A DNA stretch of 40,970 bases from Clostridia bacterium. Its GTDB lineage: Bacteria > Bacillota > Clostridia > UBA1212 > UBA1255. The notes beneath the pieces were generated by a model. That model searched no databases, was not told the origin of the DNA, and worked only from the letters and a program-made list of their open reading frames with translations. The stretch is taken from contig JAGBGO010000068.1 in the NCBI GenBank assembly GCA_017935905.1, positions 1 to 40,970 of the forward strand. The letters run 5' to 3'. How positions within the stretch are numbered: position 1 is the stretch's first letter; each line of letters starts with the position of its first letter. Positions 10,903 through 40,494 of this stretch are shown in pieces. A program made the translations under genes and the position numbers.

Positions 10903-11385
10903 TTAGGGAGCTCGGAATTCGATTCTTGTTATTGTATCATCTTCTATATCCACCCAAAGGGTGACATCCTTTTCTAACATGTACACGCAGGATTTCCCTC
11001 GCTGTACGAAATCCCCGCCATATAGGTCAGTCATTTCTGTCTTGGACATGCCCACTTTCAAACCCAAACCCGTCTGCGCCGCATCATCCGTCAAAACCAG
11101 GACACTGATAAACTCGCTTCTGCCATTTTGAGCAGGATAAGTGGTAATTTCAAAACCCGGGTAAGTGTACACTTTATCATAGCCTTTGCCATAACAACTT
11201 TGTGCTTCGGCATAGTCCACAGGGGTGCCGAATCTTGCTTCAATCCCGGCGCCATCCTCGCCTACGGAAACGGCATGTCCGGACGGCGTAAGGATATGAC
11301 CCGTTTTCTGTGCCGGTTTAGTACAACCTGCTAACAACCCTACAAACAGAACTAAACAAATGCATAACTTCCACATTCTGTTCAA
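10903..11385 (-). CDS. Small lipoprotein of unknown function
   Basis: A 160-residue protein with a lipoprotein signal peptide: a short basic N-terminus, a hydrophobic core and lipobox LLAGC with the acylated Cys at residue 21. The mature part contains KVGMSKTEMTDLYGGDF and WVDIEDDTITRIEF, a pattern seen in small BLIP/SmpA-like beta-rich domains, but I do not assign a family. The start is a TTG whose TGA overlap couples it to the upstream AlgJ-like gene; GGAGG lies seven bases before the TTG, whereas the in-frame ATG nine bases later is too far from it. It would sit on the outer face of the cell membrane. Confidence 0.8.
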   Translation of the reverse strand: MNRMWKLCICLVLFVGLLAGCTKPAQKTGHILTPSGHAVSVGEDGAGIEARFGTPVDYAEAQSCYGKGYDKVYTYPGFEITTYPAQNGRSEFISVLVLTDDAAQTGLGLKVGMSKTEMTDLYGGDFVQRGKSCVYMLEKDVTLWVDIEDDTITRIEFRAP

Positions 11386-12308
11386 GGCAATTCCTCCTTC
11401 AGTAAGTTCCGTAAATTCCGCTCTGCAATCTCTAAAATAACTACGTCGTGTTCTTCCGTTTCAGCAAGCACTTTCGTCATACTTTGTCTGGTGAAACGAC
11501 ATTCTCCAAAAGCATCCGCAAAGAAAGGAATCAAGCTGCTTCCAAAAGAATCTCGCACCATCAAAAGTCTTCCCGTTTGGTCTTCTCGCTTCGTGGTAAT
11601 TTCCATTTCCATCATAGTCCTTACGGCGGACAAATATTGGTAGGAAAAACCCTGTTTATAATACACTTGCCAATCCTTCGCTGTCAACCCGTCCGGATAA
11701 AGCATACCCGCCAGATCTCCGTCAAAATCCTTGCGTTCTTCCCATGGTAAATGACTGTAGGAAACGTCTTTTCCCGCCAAAGACAGCACCGTTTCTGCCG
11801 CCACCGCAGCCCCTCGATTGTTCCAATGGCTGTCTAATTGATGGTAAAGTTGACCGTCCATTTTACCGAAAATCTCTACGAAATCCGGAGACGCCACTTG
11901 CCGCGCCGTGAGGCCCGCCGCTACCCGAGCCGCATCGCTGCCCGGAGCCTGCAGAAAATTTCCGGGCATATATTGCGGATAAACGGTATTTTTGTTCGGC
12001 GCGCACACGAAGATAAAACGAATCCCCTGCTGTTCAAAATATTGGGAAAGGGCTTCCAGATAGTCCAAAACCCCGGTGAGTTCTTCCTCCGTAAGCCGGT
12101 TCTCTCCGGTAAAATGTCCCGAAGTTTCCCCATAATACAGCCATCCGTCCTTCCCCACCACCACTTGGTCCGTTCCGGAGGTTTGAAACACGTCACGAAG
12201 CACCCGATTGCGCAAACTGATCCACCCGGACCGGTCTTGCCAAATGCCGGGAACCAGGCACACTACAAAGAATATCACCACAAAAATTATACTGCCAATA
12301 CGACGCAT
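11382..12308 (-). CDS. AlgJ/AlgX-like SGNH (DHHW) protein, surface glycan acetylation
   Basis: A 308-residue protein with one N-terminal membrane anchor (about 5-24) and an extracytoplasmic SGNH-hydrolase-like domain. The family landmarks are VVGKDGWLYYGE (about 50-61), FVCAPNKNTVYP, the catalytic-type D-S-H-W motif in YHQLDSHWNNRGAAV (about 154-168) and LMVRDSFGSSLIPF with the putative nucleophile Ser. Such proteins work with an MBOAT protein to transfer acetyl groups to secreted or cell-wall polysaccharides. Exactly that partner is encoded directly upstream with a 13-base gap. AAGGAGGGG precedes the ATG. The glycan that is modified cannot be inferred here. Confidence 0.86.
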   Translation of the reverse strand: MRRIGSIIFVVIFFVVCLVPGIWQDRSGWISLRNRVLRDVFQTSGTDQVVVGKDGWLYYGETSGHFTGENRLTEEELTGVLDYLEALSQYFEQQGIRFIFVCAPNKNTVYPQYMPGNFLQAPGSDAARVAAGLTARQVASPDFVEIFGKMDGQLYHQLDSHWNNRGAAVAAETVLSLAGKDVSYSHLPWEERKDFDGDLAGMLYPDGLTAKDWQVYYKQGFSYQYLSAVRTMMEMEITTKREDQTGRLLMVRDSFGSSLIPFFADAFGECRFTRQSMTKVLAETEEHDVVILEIAERNLRNLLKEELP

Positions 12309-12321
12309 CCAACCCCTCCTT

Positions 12322-13638
12322 TCAAAAACGGAAATAAATAAACGGACTGTAGGTGGCTGAGGCCACCGTCATCATACAAATCAGCAACAAAAGCAGCGTC
12401 AGCAGATTAGAAATCCCTGTCGGCACTTTGAATTTCGGTTTCCACACGCTGACAGCGATGCAAACCACCAAAATTACAATAAAATACGGGGTAAAGAAGG
12501 ACAGTGTCCCGGAAATGGCGGACGGCGAGGAGGAAAAATCCGTAAACATCAAAACAAGCATTTTACCGGCCTTGCCTAAAGTTTCCGCCCGGAACAGCAC
12601 GAATCCCACCAAGACCACCAAGAAGGTGTAAATTCTGCCCAAAATGGACCGCACCGCGCTCTTCTTCTCCGGCACAAAGGCCTCGATGCTCACAAAACAG
12701 CCGTGCCACAGTCCCCAAAGCAGGAAGTTCAGCCCCGCCCCGTGCCAAATGCCGGTCAGCGCAAACACGGTCATGCGGTTTGCTACCGTACGAAGGCGCC
12801 CCTTGCGGTTCCCGCCTAAAGGAATGTATACGTAATCCCGGAACCAGGAAGACAAGGAAATATGCCACCTGCGCCAAAAGTCCCGCAGGCTGCTTGCGGT
12901 GTAGGGCATATTGAAATTTTCCTTAAAATGAAAGCCCAACATCTTCCCCAGCCCAATCGCCATATCGCTGTAGCCGGAAAAGTCGAAATAAATCTGGAAC
13001 AAGTAACAAATAGCCGCCACCCACACGGCAAAACCGGAAATGTTCCCGTCTGCCCGGGCGTATAAACTGTCGCACACCACTGCCATCGTATCTGCAAGAA
13101 GTACTTTCTTAGACAGGCCGATGACAAACCGGCGAATGCCTTGGGCGATGCCATCCGGGTTTACGTGGCGCGCCCGCAGATACGGCCGAATGTCTTTATA
13201 CTGTACAATAGGTCCCGCAATGAGTTGGGGAAAGAAACTGATATACAAAAGCACATCCCAAAAGGAGACTTTGGGCGCCTCCCCTGCTTGCCGGTCCCGA
13301 TACACGTCAATGACCAAGGACAATGCCTGAAACGTATAGAAAGAAATCCCAATGGGAAGCCGCACCGGCAGCCCTGCGTACTTAAATACGAACAGCATTC
13401 CCACGTTAAAAATCACCGCAATGGCTACAACCGTTTTAGTAGGTTTCCGGGTAAAAATGTAGTTTATGAGTATGGACGCTACCATCAGAAGCACGTATCG
13501 GGGCTCGCCCCAGGCGTAGAAGAAAAGGCTGGCTGCGATCAGCAAACCGTTTTGAATGACAGGTTTGCGGACTGCGTAATAAAGTATGCAAACGATCGGC
13601 ATGAAAAGGAATAAAAATTCCGGTGCGCTGAATACCAT
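12322..13638 (-). CDS. MBOAT O-acyltransferase (AlgI/DltB/PatA-like)
   Basis: A 438-residue polytopic membrane protein with about ten hydrophobic helices. The MBOAT signatures are clear: FDFSGYSDMAIGLGKMLGF, NMPYTASSLRDFWRRWHISLSSWFRDY (in parts) and GIWHGAGLNFLLWGLWHG with the conserved histidines. MBOAT proteins of this type pass acyl, mostly acetyl, groups across the membrane to an extracytoplasmic acceptor; the next gene encodes the matching SGNH partner. ATG with AAGGAGG four bases upstream. First gene of a four-gene operon driven by a promoter that faces murC. Confidence 0.93.
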   Translation of the reverse strand: MVFSAPEFLFLFMPIVCILYYAVRKPVIQNGLLIAASLFFYAWGEPRYVLLMVASILINYIFTRKPTKTVVAIAVIFNVGMLFVFKYAGLPVRLPIGISFYTFQALSLVIDVYRDRQAGEAPKVSFWDVLLYISFFPQLIAGPIVQYKDIRPYLRARHVNPDGIAQGIRRFVIGLSKKVLLADTMAVVCDSLYARADGNISGFAVWVAAICYLFQIYFDFSGYSDMAIGLGKMLGFHFKENFNMPYTASSLRDFWRRWHISLSSWFRDYVYIPLGGNRKGRLRTVANRMTVFALTGIWHGAGLNFLLWGLWHGCFVSIEAFVPEKKSAVRSILGRIYTFLVVLVGFVLFRAETLGKAGKMLVLMFTDFSSSPSAISGTLSFFTPYFIVILVVCIAVSVWKPKFKVPTGISNLLTLLLLLICMMTVASATYSPFIYFRF

Positions 13639-15143: not shown

Positions 15144-15177
15144 AAGAAACCACCCTGCAATTCCGGGGTGGTTTCTT
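15144..15177. terminator. Bidirectional terminator between murC and the repeat lipoprotein
   Basis: A 12-bp perfect stem AAGAAACCACCC / GGGTGGTTTCTT (15144-15155 and 15166-15177) lies between two converging genes. The loop and right arm share CAATTCCGGGGTGGTTT with the hairpin at 17005-17050, so the two terminators are related in sequence. Confidence 0.8.
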
Positions 15178-15194
15178 CTTAGACATATTATTGT

Positions 15195-16739
15195 TTATGC
15201 TCCATAATATTTTTCCAAAAACAGATTATAGTAATACAAAGCCGTTTTCTCCCCACCGGCAAAGGCATTATAATCAAAATTGAAGAAATCATTGTCAACG
15301 TACACAAGCATTTCTATATTCTCGCCGAACAAGCCGTTCAAATATTGCGTAAAGTCTGCTTCGCCGGTAAAAAGCCGCCGGAATGCATCCCTGTCCAATT
15401 CTTCTGCAAGTTGTTTGAACGTATAGATTTTTCCATTATAATATCTTGCACCTATGTTGCAAAATACTTCTCGAATGTGTGCATCATCTCCGCTGTAAAT
15501 AACGTCCAATACTTCCGGTGTACACAGGCGATACAAACGGGTAGGATAAGGGTGCGCATCAATCCATTCATCATAGGCTTCTAATGTTTCTCTCGTAATA
15601 CCGTAATGACGAATCAATTGCACCAGCAAAGGCAGTTGTGTCCCCTGGTAATTGCCACTATAGTAAGCTTCTTGGTTAAATAAATCCGGATTGTTTATAT
15701 ACTTTTTTACAGGATTATCCAGGGTATACAGAATTTCCTCAATCATCTGCATAGCAACACCGGAATCCAGCCAGCAGGCATAAGGATTGATTATAGGTTG
15801 AATATAGAATTTAAAGGGCTCTGCCCAATTCTCCCGGTAAACAAAATCGGTGGATTTCTCTTTATCTATAAACTTTACGTGTTCGGCATACTCTTTTGGA
15901 TATTCAGTCTTCCATCTTACCCAATTTTCAAAACTATTCCAACGCCAGATGGTGTCATAAGGATCTAAATAGTGAGCCCGTAGAATGCCATTCCACTGAT
16001 CACTTCCCGGTAAATCCATTGCCCACAAATCAGATCCGCCGCCGCGAAGCGCCGACTCAACAAAGACGTTTCCTGCAGCAAGAAGTTCACGCAGCACCGT
16101 GCCCGGAGTGTCATACACCAGTTGAGAAACAGGATAAATCTTCCCTTCATAATAAGACGCATATTTACCCAAAAGTTGTAGCATCACATTCGCATCATCT
16201 TTGCAAGTTAAAATCGACGTTAGACTAACAGGATATACGGCCTGTGTGAAAGGATTTTCATAGTACCAAATATTATAAGATTCCAAAGTCTCTTGCGAAA
16301 TATGATAATGACGAATCAATTGCACCAACAAAGGTAACTCTCCGCCGTTTCGTGCATTAAAATAATCATCTGTTCCATCAAAGTTTGCCACGGGGTCTGT
16401 CTTTTGATTGAGAATATGACGAATGGCATCCATCGCATATTCAGAATCTACCCAAGCCGCGTAATAACTGTGTGCCGGTTCAAAGAAAAACTTTTCTTTG
16501 TGTTCTGAACTATATGCAATCGTGCCGGGACCATCCTGCAATTCCATATTGACACCGTGTTTCGCGCGTAAGACTTCATAGTCGGCAGGATTCTCACATA
16601 TCCATTGTTGCCACTTTTGAAAACTGTTCCAACGTTCTTCCACATTTATTTTCGCAGGTGCACTTTCACAGGCAGAAAAAAGAAAAATCATAGTAGAAGT
16701 CAAGACAAAAAAGAATACTATTTTTTTTGAGAATTTCAT
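15195..16739 (-). CDS. Lipoprotein with two tandem copies of an unknown domain
   Basis: A 514-residue protein with a lipoprotein signal (FLFSACES, acylated Cys at about 24). The rest is two copies of one domain of roughly 230 residues. Matching pieces are RWNSFQKWQQW (about 36) with RWNSFENWVRW (about 269), and ELPLLVQLIRHYHISQETLE with QLPLLVQLIRHYGITRETLE, then YYEGKIYPVSQL with YYNGKIYTFKQL. The copies differ in most other positions, so the duplication is old. I do not recognise the domain: it is rich in Trp and Tyr and helical, suggesting a surface protein binding a peptide or glycan. ATG with AAGGAGTG upstream. It has its own promoter and lies between two terminators, so it is a single-gene unit. 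Confidence 0.85.
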   Translation of the reverse strand: MKFSKKIVFFFVLTSTMIFLFSACESAPAKINVEERWNSFQKWQQWICENPADYEVLRAKHGVNMELQDGPGTIAYSSEHKEKFFFEPAHSYYAAWVDSEYAMDAIRHILNQKTDPVANFDGTDDYFNARNGGELPLLVQLIRHYHISQETLESYNIWYYENPFTQAVYPVSLTSILTCKDDANVMLQLLGKYASYYEGKIYPVSQLVYDTPGTVLRELLAAGNVFVESALRGGGSDLWAMDLPGSDQWNGILRAHYLDPYDTIWRWNSFENWVRWKTEYPKEYAEHVKFIDKEKSTDFVYRENWAEPFKFYIQPIINPYACWLDSGVAMQMIEEILYTLDNPVKKYINNPDLFNQEAYYSGNYQGTQLPLLVQLIRHYGITRETLEAYDEWIDAHPYPTRLYRLCTPEVLDVIYSGDDAHIREVFCNIGARYYNGKIYTFKQLAEELDRDAFRRLFTGEADFTQYLNGLFGENIEMLVYVDNDFFNFDYNAFAGGEKTALYYYNLFLEKYYGA

Positions 16740-16909
16740 ACAATCACTCCTTATATATCCACGAATGCAAAACTACATACCGCTCACTCTAGGATTAACA
16801 AAGATAGAAAGATAGTCTGTACCATCGCTCGAATTTCCTTCTCGAACAAAGAATATTTTTCACAATAAATACCTGTGATCATTTACTTTTCCACTCATAA
16901 CTTACCTAT

Positions 16910-16938
16910 AAGGTATCACGTACATTGGTATTTGTCAA
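16910..16938 (-). promoter_or_regulatory. Promoter of the repeat lipoprotein gene
   Basis: TTGACA (16933-16938), a 17-base spacer and TACCTT (16910-16915) on the minus strand. This gives an AT-rich leader of about 160 bases (16740-16903) in which I see no known RNA element. The remaining part of the 16740-17068 gap holds this promoter and the mreB terminator; no gene was found. Confidence 0.65.
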
Positions 16939-17004
16939 TTAATATTTGCTACACAATAATTTCATTCGTTAATAAATAATTATATTAACCTTTTGTAGGT
17001 TAAC

Positions 17005-17050
17005 AAAACCACCCCGTTCTTGCTTCTTCAGCAATTCCGGGGTGGTTTTT
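17005..17050. terminator. Terminator downstream of mreB
   Basis: AACCACCCCG pairs with CGGGGTGGTT (about 17007-17016 and 17038-17047). The loop contains a second small hairpin, GCTTCTTCAGC. T-runs flank it on both strands. The right arm repeats the murC terminator sequence. Confidence 0.8.
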
Positions 17051-17068
17051 TCTTTACCGTATTCCAAT

Positions 17069-18091
17069 TTATTTCCGAATAGCGTATTTACTCTTCTTAG
17101 AAGCATCCATTTCGTTGAGCAACTGAATGGAACCCCGTACGACGCAATGTTGCGGATCTTCCGCTACGGTGACGTCAACGCCGGTGCTCTTTCGAACCAA
17201 TTCGTCAAAGCCTGCAATCAATGCACCGCCACCGGTCATTACAATACCTTTGCCGTAAATATCGGCTGCAAGTTCCGGCGGTGTCTCTTCTAATACTGCG
17301 TGAATACCGTCCAAAATGGGCAGTGCCGTTTCAATTAAGGGCTCTGTAATCTCTTCAGACGTAACAACGCGCTCGCTGGGAAGCCCCGTAATAATATCGC
17401 TACCACGAATTTCCACAGAATTGCTGCGGATGCCATGATACAAGTTACCGACTTCCCGTTTAATCAATTCTGCGGTGCTGTCACCGATGAGCAAATTGTG
17501 CTTCTTCTTCAAATAGTTCTTAATGGTTTCATCAAAGGTATTACCTGCAACCTTGACGCTCTTGCTGGTAACGATACCTTCGTAAGAAATAACCGCAATA
17601 TCCGTAGTACCGCCGCCCACGTCAATAATCATGTGACCGGAAGGACGGGAAATGTCCAATCCTGCACCAACGGCAGCAGCCAAAGGCTCCTCTACTAAGA
17701 ATACGCGGCGTGCGCCGGCTTCCAACGTAGCCTGCTCAACGGCTCTGCGCTCTACGTTCGTCGTCTTACTGGGAATACAGATAATCACGTCCGGTGGGAA
17801 AATCCGCTTCAAAGGATTCTTAATCGCCTTATTGACAAAGTAACGAATCATGTGGGCCGTAATGGTGTAACTGGAAATAACACCATTCTGTACCGGCTTT
17901 ACAGTGGTAATATCGAAAGGCGTACGGCCCATCATAGAACGAGCTTCATCGCCCACTGCAACCACTTCATTGGTACCGTCCTTGACTGCAACAATAGACG
18001 GCGCCTTAATAACAACGTCCTTCTTGCCTACGCTGACAAGCACCGTTGCCGTTCCCAAATCGATTGCCATATTTTGCTTAAAAAAACTCAC
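17069..18091 (-). CDS. mreB: MreB/Mbl-family rod-shape actin
   Basis: A 340-residue bacterial actin that polymerises under the membrane and guides peptidoglycan synthesis. Seen: AIDLGTATVLVSV (phosphate 1 loop, about 9-21), VEEPLAAAVGAGLDISRPSGHMIIDVGGGTTD (connect 1 and phosphate 2, in parts, about 132-165) and IVMTGGGALIAGFDEL (adenosine motif, about 288-303). Length is normal. It stands alone, without mreC or mreD, which fits Mbl or an extra MreB paralogue as well as MreB itself. The start is a GTG at 18089-18091 with GGGAGG eight bases upstream. Confidence 0.93.
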   Translation of the reverse strand: MSFFKQNMAIDLGTATVLVSVGKKDVVIKAPSIVAVKDGTNEVVAVGDEARSMMGRTPFDITTVKPVQNGVISSYTITAHMIRYFVNKAIKNPLKRIFPPDVIICIPSKTTNVERRAVEQATLEAGARRVFLVEEPLAAAVGAGLDISRPSGHMIIDVGGGTTDIAVISYEGIVTSKSVKVAGNTFDETIKNYLKKKHNLLIGDSTAELIKREVGNLYHGIRSNSVEIRGSDIITGLPSERVVTSEEITEPLIETALPILDGIHAVLEETPPELAADIYGKGIVMTGGGALIAGFDELVRKSTGVDVTVAEDPQHCVVRGSIQLLNEMDASKKSKYAIRK

Positions 18092-37686: not shown

Positions 37687-37710
37687 ACTTTGAAAGGAAC
37701 TACCGGCAAT

Positions 37711-38970
37711 ATGACCTTGCGCGACAGCTTGCGTACACGTGTGTACTGCGGGCAACTTGCCATTTATGACACAAAAACGCACCGAGAGCTCTTTCTCAAT
37801 CAAAGAGATACAGAGCTCTTTTTACGTTACTTACAAAAAGACGGTGCAATAGACCAGCCGGAGAAATTTGCGTCGATTATACATGGGATCAAACAATTTG
37901 ACCTATTGGAACAACAACCGCCTCTGCTTCTGCCCGGCAGGTTGCATAACGCCGATTTGTACACCTTTGCTTGTGCGCACAAGCTTTTGCATTCGGTTAC
38001 GCTGGAGCTCACGCACCGTTGCAATATGTGCTGCCGGCACTGCTACGTTGCCCCTGAGATGCAAAGCGGCAAGAACGAGCTGACCACCGCACAATGGAAA
38101 ACCGTACTGGCAAAGCTCAGAGATATGCAGGTAATGGAAATTACCTTAACCGGCGGTGAGCCGTTTATGCGTCAGGATGTTTTCGATATTCTCTCTTATC
38201 TACGGAAACTTGGTTTTACTGTTACCATCTACTCCAATGCCACGGTTCTGTCAGACAGCGATATTTTTCGGTTAGCGCAGGAGCAGGTCAATTGTTTCCA
38301 CACCAGCCTATATAGCCATATTTCACAAAAGCACGACGCAGTCACGGGACATAAAGGTTCCTTTGATAAAACGGTAGACGCATTGCACAAATTGCACACC
38401 GTGGGCATTGCCACCAATATCAAACACTTAATTATGCAGGGTATGGAAACGGATCTCGATGGTATGATCGCACTAGCGAAATCGCTGGGTGCATCCCTTC
38501 AACCGTCACTGGGCCTGTTTCCTTCACAAAACGGAGATTGCAGCCCTCTTTCGTGCGAAATCACCGATATGGATGCACTGACCTCTATTTACGAAAGTTG
38601 GCTGTCCGGAAACAAAATCTCCCACCAAGAAGAACGCGCGAGCGGTCCCCTTTGCCATGCAGGTCACGACCGTCTGAGCATCGCCCCCGATGGAACTATA
38701 TATCCCTGCAACGTACTGAAAATCCCGTTAGGAAACGTTTTACACGACGATATCGCTGAGATATGGGCGAACAGCGAAACACTGATTTCTCTGCGACAAA
38801 AGAAAATAGAAGAAATTTCCGGCTGTGCCGATTGCAAATTTGCCGGTTATTGTTCCTTTTGCCCTGCCCATTCTCTGGCACAAAACAGCGTTATTGACCG
38901 ACCCTACGCCGGTGCTTGCAAAAGAGCCGAGGCCCTGTGCCGCGCCGCCGAAAACGTACGCAATCTTTAA
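37711..38970 (+). CDS. Radical SAM/SPASM peptide maturase with PqqD/RRE-like N-terminus
   Basis: A 419-residue enzyme. The first 75 residues (HRELFLNQRDTELFLRYL, HGIKQFDLLE) look like the winged-helix PqqD/RRE fold that grips RiPP leader peptides. The radical SAM core has CX3CX2C in THRCNMCCRHCYV (Cys 104, 108, 111) and TLTGGEPFMRQDVFDIL as the SAM-binding GGE motif. A C-terminal SPASM domain has CHAGHDRLSIAPDGTIYPC and the CX2CX5CX2C set GCADCKFAGYCSFC plus a final Cys, enough for auxiliary [4Fe-4S] clusters. The frame is open to a TTG at 37690, but the ATG at 37711 is preferred (AAAGGA 12 bases upstream). The modification is unknown. No exporter or protease gene is next to it. Confidence 0.88.
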   Translation: MTLRDSLRTRVYCGQLAIYDTKTHRELFLNQRDTELFLRYLQKDGAIDQPEKFASIIHGIKQFDLLEQQPPLLLPGRLHNADLYTFACAHKLLHSVTLELTHRCNMCCRHCYVAPEMQSGKNELTTAQWKTVLAKLRDMQVMEITLTGGEPFMRQDVFDILSYLRKLGFTVTIYSNATVLSDSDIFRLAQEQVNCFHTSLYSHISQKHDAVTGHKGSFDKTVDALHKLHTVGIATNIKHLIMQGMETDLDGMIALAKSLGASLQPSLGLFPSQNGDCSPLSCEITDMDALTSIYESWLSGNKISHQEERASGPLCHAGHDRLSIAPDGTIYPCNVLKIPLGNVLHDDIAEIWANSETLISLRQKKIEEISGCADCKFAGYCSFCPAHSLAQNSVIDRPYAGACKRAEALCRAAENVRNL

Positions 38971-39075: not shown

Positions 39076-39146
39076 ATCGTATTCTCTGATTGCTCTCCTC
39101 CCATCCTATTTACTATGTATACGCAGCGAAAGATTTGGAAATACTG

Positions 39147-39175
39147 TTGACATTACTTCGGCATACCGATATAAT
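39147..39175 (+). promoter_or_regulatory. Perfect SigA promoter of the toxin-antitoxin pair
   Basis: TTGACA (39147-39152), exactly 17 bases, TATAAT (39170-39175). The ribosome site AAAGGAGGG begins about 10 bases later, so the leader is very short. A promoter this strong is usually held down by its own product, here probably the XRE protein. Confidence 0.9.
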
Positions 39176-39197
39176 ATTAATGAAAGGAGGGAGTAAT

Positions 39198-39785
39198 ATG
39201 TCCCTGAACGAAGCATTAGCACAAAAGAACATTACCAAGTACCGGTTGTGGAAAGAAAGCGGGGTACCCCAAGCAACCATTTCGGATATTTGCACCGGTA
39301 AGACTAACATCGAAAAGTGTTCTGCAGAAACGATCTATCGAATTGCAAAAGTGTTGGATGTTTCTATGGAGAGCCTGATTGCTCCTGCTGTAAGAAGCTT
39401 AGATGAGGAGCGCAGACGTCCTTCTTTTGAAGTGTTCAAAAGTAATACCTGTCATCGAGTGAAGGATATGGGCGATATCCCTTTTATGATCCAATTACTC
39501 AAGACAAATCAAATCCGAAAACTGTACGAAAAGAAATGGTATCCCGAAGCGCTTTATCTATTGGCTATGTTAGATTACCTTTCTAAGGAAAATAAAGTTC
39601 CAATCTGCAAAAACTACAATGATATTCGCAACAGCAAGTTGAAAAAGCCTATATATCCTTCGAGTGTAATTATTCTTTGTAAAACAACGAAGTCCGAGAC
39701 GCCGAAAGAAGAGTGCCTTCGTATGGCAATTCCTGAATTTTTGCGATTTAATATCGTAGAAAGCGAGGTGCGCAATGTCTTCTGA
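39198..39785 (+). CDS. XRE-family regulator, probable antitoxin
   Basis: A 195-residue protein. The first 70 residues are an XRE/Cro-type helix-turn-helix (ITKYRLWKESGVPQATISDI, then CSAETIYRIAKVLDVSMESL). The rest is a helical domain with KKWYPEALYLLAMLDYLSKEN, which I associate with antitoxins paired with DUF6036-type nucleotidyltransferases. A longer frame begins at 39090, but it runs through the promoter; the ATG at 39198 follows AAAGGAGGG. Its last 11 bases overlap the next gene, so the pair is translationally coupled. Codon use and base composition are more AT-rich than the thi genes, hinting at acquisition by transfer. Confidence 0.82.
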   Translation: MSLNEALAQKNITKYRLWKESGVPQATISDICTGKTNIEKCSAETIYRIAKVLDVSMESLIAPAVRSLDEERRRPSFEVFKSNTCHRVKDMGDIPFMIQLLKTNQIRKLYEKKWYPEALYLLAMLDYLSKENKVPICKNYNDIRNSKLKKPIYPSSVIILCKTTKSETPKEECLRMAIPEFLRFNIVESEVRNVF

Positions 39786-40494
39786 TATCCCTATTACAAA
39801 AGAGAACCTTGATACCTATTTAAAAGAAGTTGCAAAACAGTTTCGTAAACTGAACAAAAAGGCCATACCGGCAGACATCACTTTGATCGGCGGCGCATCT
39901 ATTTTGATTAACTATGGCTTTCGCGATTCCACTTATGATGCAGATGCGTTGATCCAAGCCTCTTCTGCGATGAAAGATGCTATCAATTATGTAACAGATA
40001 CTTTTGGGCTACCTAATGGCTGGCTAAATGAAGATTTCAAAAATACTAGATCTTATACGCCCAGACTTATACAGTATTCCAAGCATTATCGCACATTTTC
40101 CAATATTGTAAACATTCGAACAATTACCGGCGAGTACCTAGTTGCAATGAAGCTTATGGCATCCAGAAAGTATAAACACGACATTTCCGATATCGTAGGG
40201 ATTTTGTGTGAACATGAAAAACGCGGATCTCCCCTAACTTTCGAACAAATTGATAAGGCTGTGACTGATTTATATGATAGTTGGGAGAAAATGCCAGAAG
40301 ATGCACAAGTACTAATCCACAGCATTCTCGAAAACGAAGATATGGATGCATTATACAAGACTTATGCAAACGAGGAAGCAGCAGCCAAGAACGCATTGAT
40401 TACCTTTGACGATCAGTATCCAGATGCACTAACGGAAAACAACTTAGATGAGATACTTAATCATCTGTTGGAACGTCAAGAAGATAAGCAATAA
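39775..40494 (+). CDS. DUF6036-like nucleotidyltransferase, probable toxin
   Basis: A 239-residue protein with a nucleotidyltransferase core: TLIGGASILINYGFRDSTYDADAL (in parts, about 40-63), where the GG-x-S loop and the D-x-D pair stand for nucleotide and metal binding. A third acidic site may be in VNIRTITGEYLVAMKLMASRKYKHDISDIVGIL (about 120-150), which also matches the family (KLMASR, DISDI). Related AbiEii/MenT-type enzymes block growth by modifying tRNA and give phage defence. The upstream XRE gene overlaps it. Alternatively it is a housekeeping-type nucleotidyltransferase with a regulator, which I think less likely. Confidence 0.78.
   Translation: MSSDIPITKENLDTYLKEVAKQFRKLNKKAIPADITLIGGASILINYGFRDSTYDADALIQASSAMKDAINYVTDTFGLPNGWLNEDFKNTRSYTPRLIQYSKHYRTFSNIVNIRTITGEYLVAMKLMASRKYKHDISDIVGILCEHEKRGSPLTFEQIDKAVTDLYDSWEKMPEDAQVLIHSILENEDMDALYKTYANEEAAAKNALITFDDQYPDALTENNLDEILNHLLERQEDKQ

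Follow-up and report, generated by a model that had tools for sequence, protein, structure and literature searches.

A gene lying between murC and mreB, at 15195-16739 on the minus strand of the window (the whole 40,970-nt stretch of Clostridia bacterium DNA that we analysed), raises the question of what a lipoprotein built from two copies of an unrecognised domain does for its cell. Its open reading frame translates to a product of 514 residues. The leader peptide (residues 1-24; 16668-16739, minus strand) starts with MKFSKK and ends with FLFSAC; positively charged N-terminal residues and a hydrophobic stretch lead into a lipobox (MKFSKKIVFFFVLTSTMIFLFSAC), whose cysteine, Cys24, is predicted to be lipidated. 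Here and below, lipobox and membrane-helix assignments were made by script rules rather than by trained predictors. A ribosome-binding site, AAGGAG (16747-16752, minus strand), can be read 7 nt before the ATG. The leader with its lipobox cysteine supports the first-pass annotation of the product as a surface lipoprotein, probably held by a lipid anchor. That annotation had also given the gene its own promoter and a long leader, neither of which found support. The region contains 13 promoter-like sites compared with 6.0 expected, and only an AT-rich upstream region remains. A riboswitch or structured leader was not found in the 241-nt leader, which showed no unusual fold (z -0.25) and, in an Rfam search, no match near the gathering score.

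Three other loci of the window were noticed. An XRE-type regulator overlaps a nucleotidyltransferase-like ORF at 39090-40494 (plus strand), an arrangement that looks toxin-antitoxin-like by eye. A radical SAM/SPASM-like ORF at 37690-38970 (plus strand, by eye), preceded by a gap of about 700 bp, may mark a peptide-modification locus. At 11382-13638 (minus strand), an AlgJ-like ORF (by eye) adjoins an MBOAT acyltransferase identified by Pfam, possibly forming a cell-surface O-acetylation pair.

BLASTP aligned residues 36-228 of the lipoprotein with residues 266-465 over 205 columns, of which 34% are identical (E 6e-32). Aligned by Smith-Waterman, the two halves scored 274, whereas 500 shuffled versions scored 35 on average and 58 at most. 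The three anchor motifs on which the duplication had first been proposed were all present. Domain copy 1 lies at 16056-16634 (core about 16041-16346) and copy 2 at 15345-15944 (core about 15330-15644), both on the minus strand. Profile A6 matched them at E 1.3e-21 and 2e-25, respectively; profile A1 gave E 3e-58 and 1.3e-61, values that are not independent because both halves are rows of A1. The third codon base was the same in only 38 of the 69 identical aligned residues; synonymous positions are thus near-randomised, indicating that the tandem duplication is indeed old. In a tree built from domain cores, each half was the other's nearest row (support 94/89, not decisive), consistent with duplication within the lineage of this protein. 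Tandem copies also occur elsewhere, with two in L113 (sigma-linked), three in L114/L136 (lipoprotein) and two in L121 (lipoprotein). They had separate origins in L113, in L114/L136 and in the window protein, that is, in at least three proteins.

Neither Pfam nor NCBIfam gave a match to the window protein, even with the threshold relaxed to E 10. Pfam searches with the rows of A1 (12), A3 (16) and A6 (31) returned scattered weak matches only, nearly all of them to single rows, and no NCBIfam family was common to two of the 31 A6 rows. The domain had been called unrecognised, and a family covering each half, sought in both databases, was not found. A PDB sequence search with the protein and the profiles gave nothing convincing. 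Pseudomurein-binding repeats matched one of the 31 core rows at E 0.016, which is chance level, and this identity was not used. The portions of the literature searched, those of PMC8103513 and PMC7406223 among them, held no description that we recognised as this domain. As judged by sequence, the domain is an undescribed, putatively extracytoplasmic module spanning about 200 residues, some 105 of which form its core. W, P, Y, L, E and G fill the invariant columns of A4, which appears to lack a conserved His/Cys pattern of the kind that would suggest an enzyme.

An AlphaFold2 model of copy 2, of low confidence (mean pLDDT 59.2, core blocks mostly 68-85), showed a beta hairpin, located at the NGKIYT motif, with helices about it, and a weak full-length model (mean pLDDT 53.9) showed an order of elements much alike in both halves. 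Structure prediction of one half, recommended at the first pass, thus yielded helices plus a hairpin but was too weak for a fold claim. Foldseek found no fold match to these low-confidence models, nor did VIA-align 2, for which the best hit had Z 2.8 and 5.2 A over 73 residues; a missing match does not imply a new fold and excludes nothing.

To place the domain among its relatives, we searched other genomes. With the window protein as a single sequence, weak relatives were detected in nine further genomes of 58 (E 8e-9 to 1.6e-4), and a profile made from the two window halves alone recovered 11 of 11 relatives. One-domain relatives, for which a search with a single half had been advised, were found by profile, together with their gene neighbours. 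The window protein belongs to the domain family by its similarity to other members and by profiles A1, A3 and A6. Counting this genome, A1 matches fell in 11 of 31 genomes of the order and in 9 of 391 of the class. The core profile A3, at E 0.01, matched 12 of the 391 class genomes, several of them doubtfully, and 26 of 295 genomes from the order of G286; A6 matched 6 of 398 phylum genomes, namely this genome and five with partial matches. The doubtful matches in G252, G018, G180 and G196 and the five partial phylum matches stand outside the census described below. These counts indicate that the family is patchy and, in the sampled genomes, concentrated in two Clostridia orders, although most of the genomes are draft MAGs in which absence may reflect incompleteness. 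Among the carriers are MAGs recorded as Mageeibacillus sp., as uncultured Ruminococcus sp. and as Clostridia bacterium; two carry a rumen label. The same-genus genome G001 had no copy of the domain, and in the genome under study (92% complete) the lipoprotein gene was the only match, with no second copy found by A6.

We then took a census of 46 fetched loci from 38 Clostridia genomes, in which every ORF matching A3 at E 1e-3 was counted, giving 52 proteins: 33 lipoproteins, 15 single-pass proteins, 2 M56 fusions and 2 proteins cut by contig ends. One of the M56 fusions, a lipoprotein by the script rule, was reassigned after its M56 match. An ECF sigma gene lay directly upstream of 13 of the 15 single-pass proteins and of none of the 33 lipoproteins (Fisher p 5e-10, kinship ignored), and the 13 sigma-linked frames overlap the end of the sigma gene. 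Pfam confirmed a sigma factor in all six sigma ORFs scanned, plus L078. No sigma gene was close upstream in 32 of the 33 lipoproteins, two of which (G012:C223 and G508) have less than 600 bases of upstream sequence; the exception, in G553, is a domain lipoprotein whose gene comes after those for a sigma factor and a DUF4367 protein. No Pfam anti-sigma domain was found in the cytoplasmic parts scanned among the sigma-linked proteins, for which 'anti-sigma' is a putative label drawn from topology and operon order. In the two BlaR1-type fusions (Peptidase_M56, E 1e-41 and 1.3e-46), the domain sits at the outer end, and the gene upstream of each encodes Penicillinase_R, a BlaI-type repressor. Two arrangements were noted in passing: a BlaR1-type M56 protein of 1308 residues (L141:1370-5293) that combines the domain with BspA-type leucine-rich repeats, and, at L164, G408:C4, an apparent run of three genes, for an ECF sigma factor, a sigma-linked domain protein and another small single-pass protein with the domain.

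The Fisher test treats related sequences as independent, an objection that the tree answers in part. After removal of near-copies and the doubtful L104 match, 43 of 67 domain rows were kept; on this tree the label 'sigma-linked' required six changes, at least five of which were forced by well-supported branches, indicating that the domain is a swapped module. What is new here is the set of contexts of the domain in other Clostridia, as the outer part of stress-signalling receptors; the first pass had proposed no function, and the single-domain relatives provide one.

These layouts resemble known systems in part. The sigma-linked relatives share the order of sigma gene followed by single-pass protein with an outer domain found in ECF anti-sigma factors whose extracytoplasmic domains bind ligands, RsiV for example, as described in portions of PMC9044953 and PMC6066255; according to the former, regulated proteolysis destroys RsiV once it has bound lysozyme. 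In contrast to RsiV-type factors, the outer domain here matched no Pfam family, and the window lipoprotein has neither a transmembrane helix nor a cytoplasmic sigma-binding part; the sigma model found no sigma ORF near its gene on the same strand (L149). The two M56 relatives recall BlaR1/MecR1 with BlaI, each being an M56 protein with an outer-end domain behind a Penicillinase_R gene. They differ from BlaR1/MecR1 in that the domain is C-terminal to the M56 part and no penicillin-binding sensor family was matched at E 0.001; the window protein itself has no Peptidase_M56 part by Pfam. The outer modules of RsgI are known carbohydrate-binding or enzyme families, none of which the domain here matches. 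In RsgI of Clostridium thermocellum, as presented in part of PMC12203970, outer modules are likewise swapped on a common signalling chassis.

We slightly favour the view that the domain is a sensing or binding module in receptors which, duplicated on a lipid anchor in the window protein, would serve as a tethered binder, co-receptor or decoy. The domain would bind an extracellular or cell-wall ligand, as proposed by analogy with RsiV; in the receptors, the bound ligand would cause the sigma factor or repressor to be set free, and in the window lipoprotein the duplicated domain would act without a transducer of its own. The duplication, the anchors (by sequence), the gene contexts and the insertion site are seen in the data; ligand binding, signalling and what the orphan lipoprotein does are inferred, the last being the weakest step. 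Since its own genome has no other copy of the domain, no receptor sharing it is encoded there, which counts against this view, as does the lack of a fold match and of Pfam anti-sigma domains in the cytoplasmic parts scanned. The domain could also be a structural spacer instead of a binding part. More tentatively, at somewhat less than even chances, it may be a freely swapped sensing domain, used by Clostridia of the gut and rumen to couple a single class of envelope signal to three outputs (ECF sigma/anti-sigma, BlaI/BlaR1-type and lipoprotein); the double-domain lipoprotein would then be a co-receptor or decoy for the same ligand.

The lipoprotein might instead be a surface adhesin or structural protein, with the domain a generic spacer or binding module that receptors recruit to reach through the wall and that senses nothing. 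Lipoproteins do make up 33 of the 52 census members, and 32 of these lack a sigma gene close upstream; several receptors have long Pro/Thr-rich linkers ahead of the domain, and other outer domains, such as BspA-type LRR_5 and Big_14, occur alongside it. Two different signalling systems are, however, recurrently linked to the domain (15 of 52 proteins, including the two M56 fusions), and the second-order sigma-linked proteins, of about 310-440 residues, mostly have little else outside the membrane. We regard the adhesin reading as unlikely.

The sensing or binding role leaves the position of the gene to be considered. The orthologues of murC and mreB are convergent on one contig in 12 of 16 genomes of the family; in the other four they fall on separate contigs, or a full ortholog match is missing. 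The gap between them, measured between matched ends with stop codons counted in the gap, is 13-290 bp in 11 of the 12 genomes, compared with 1948 bp here. A repeat search found a terminator-like palindrome shared with the convergent murC (15144-15177) and another between mreB and the lipoprotein gene (17005-17049), no strand being assigned to either. The two are copies of each other, and their stem pattern, found at the murC palindrome and at 17006, had no other match in the 1.88-Mb genome (the reversed control pattern had 0). The palindrome at 17005-17049 aligns with a single related terminator at the same junction of G001. A direct repeat of the terminator right arm and its flank (15157-15198 and 17031-17072, plus strand; 79% over 42 nt, first 18 nt identical) brackets the insert at 15157-17072, as found by repeat and pattern search. 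With terminator copies on both sides here and one in G001, the insertion came with a doubled terminator, suggesting some insertion process. The related flanking terminators reported at the first pass are therefore real, and together with the long gap they support its idea of a recent arrival; its description of the gene as monocistronic fits the palindromes and may stand. A role in a cell-wall operon, considered because of murC and mreB, was rejected because the genes on either side of the inserted gene are convergent. On a 3.3-kb contig belonging to the same bin (L073, G000:C54, 1-3303), a murC copy (91% aa identity) precedes an IS3-like transposase ORF and another lipoprotein-like gene, which has His/Cys-containing repeats (by eye); the contig may come from another strain binned together with this one, or mark an insertion hotspot behind murC.

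Such an insertion also suits a gene that is mobile-element cargo, an accessory surface protein with no host role that is kept or lost neutrally. In addition to the site between the convergent genes and the terminator copies, the low GC content of the gene (0.40, compared with 0.54 for murC and 0.48 for mreB; 0.31 in the upstream 261 bases) and the genes behind the murC copy on the same-bin contig agree with it. Against it, no stop breaks the reading frame, and the domain is conserved; a phage or plasmid origin was sought with no match, and no transposase or integrase ORF lies within the insert. We consider this explanation improbable. More doubtful still is regulation of a cell-wall hydrolase, suggested by a weak likeness of the C-terminal region of two sigma-linked relatives to the DL-endopeptidase inhibitor IseA (PF16800; E 1.8e-4 and 2.4e-3): both matches are below the Pfam cut-off, PF16800 was not found in G000, G006 or G025, and the window protein has neither that C-terminal region nor a PF16800 match.

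The favoured sensing or binding role turns a 'hypothetical protein' into a testable candidate sensor or ligand-binding protein. Many ECF and BlaR1-like receptors of Clostridia await their signals, and the ligand of one common domain could explain many of them. The orphan lipoproteins that carry the domain are small enough to purify, and such unannotated surface lipoproteins may thus become testable parts of envelope sensing.
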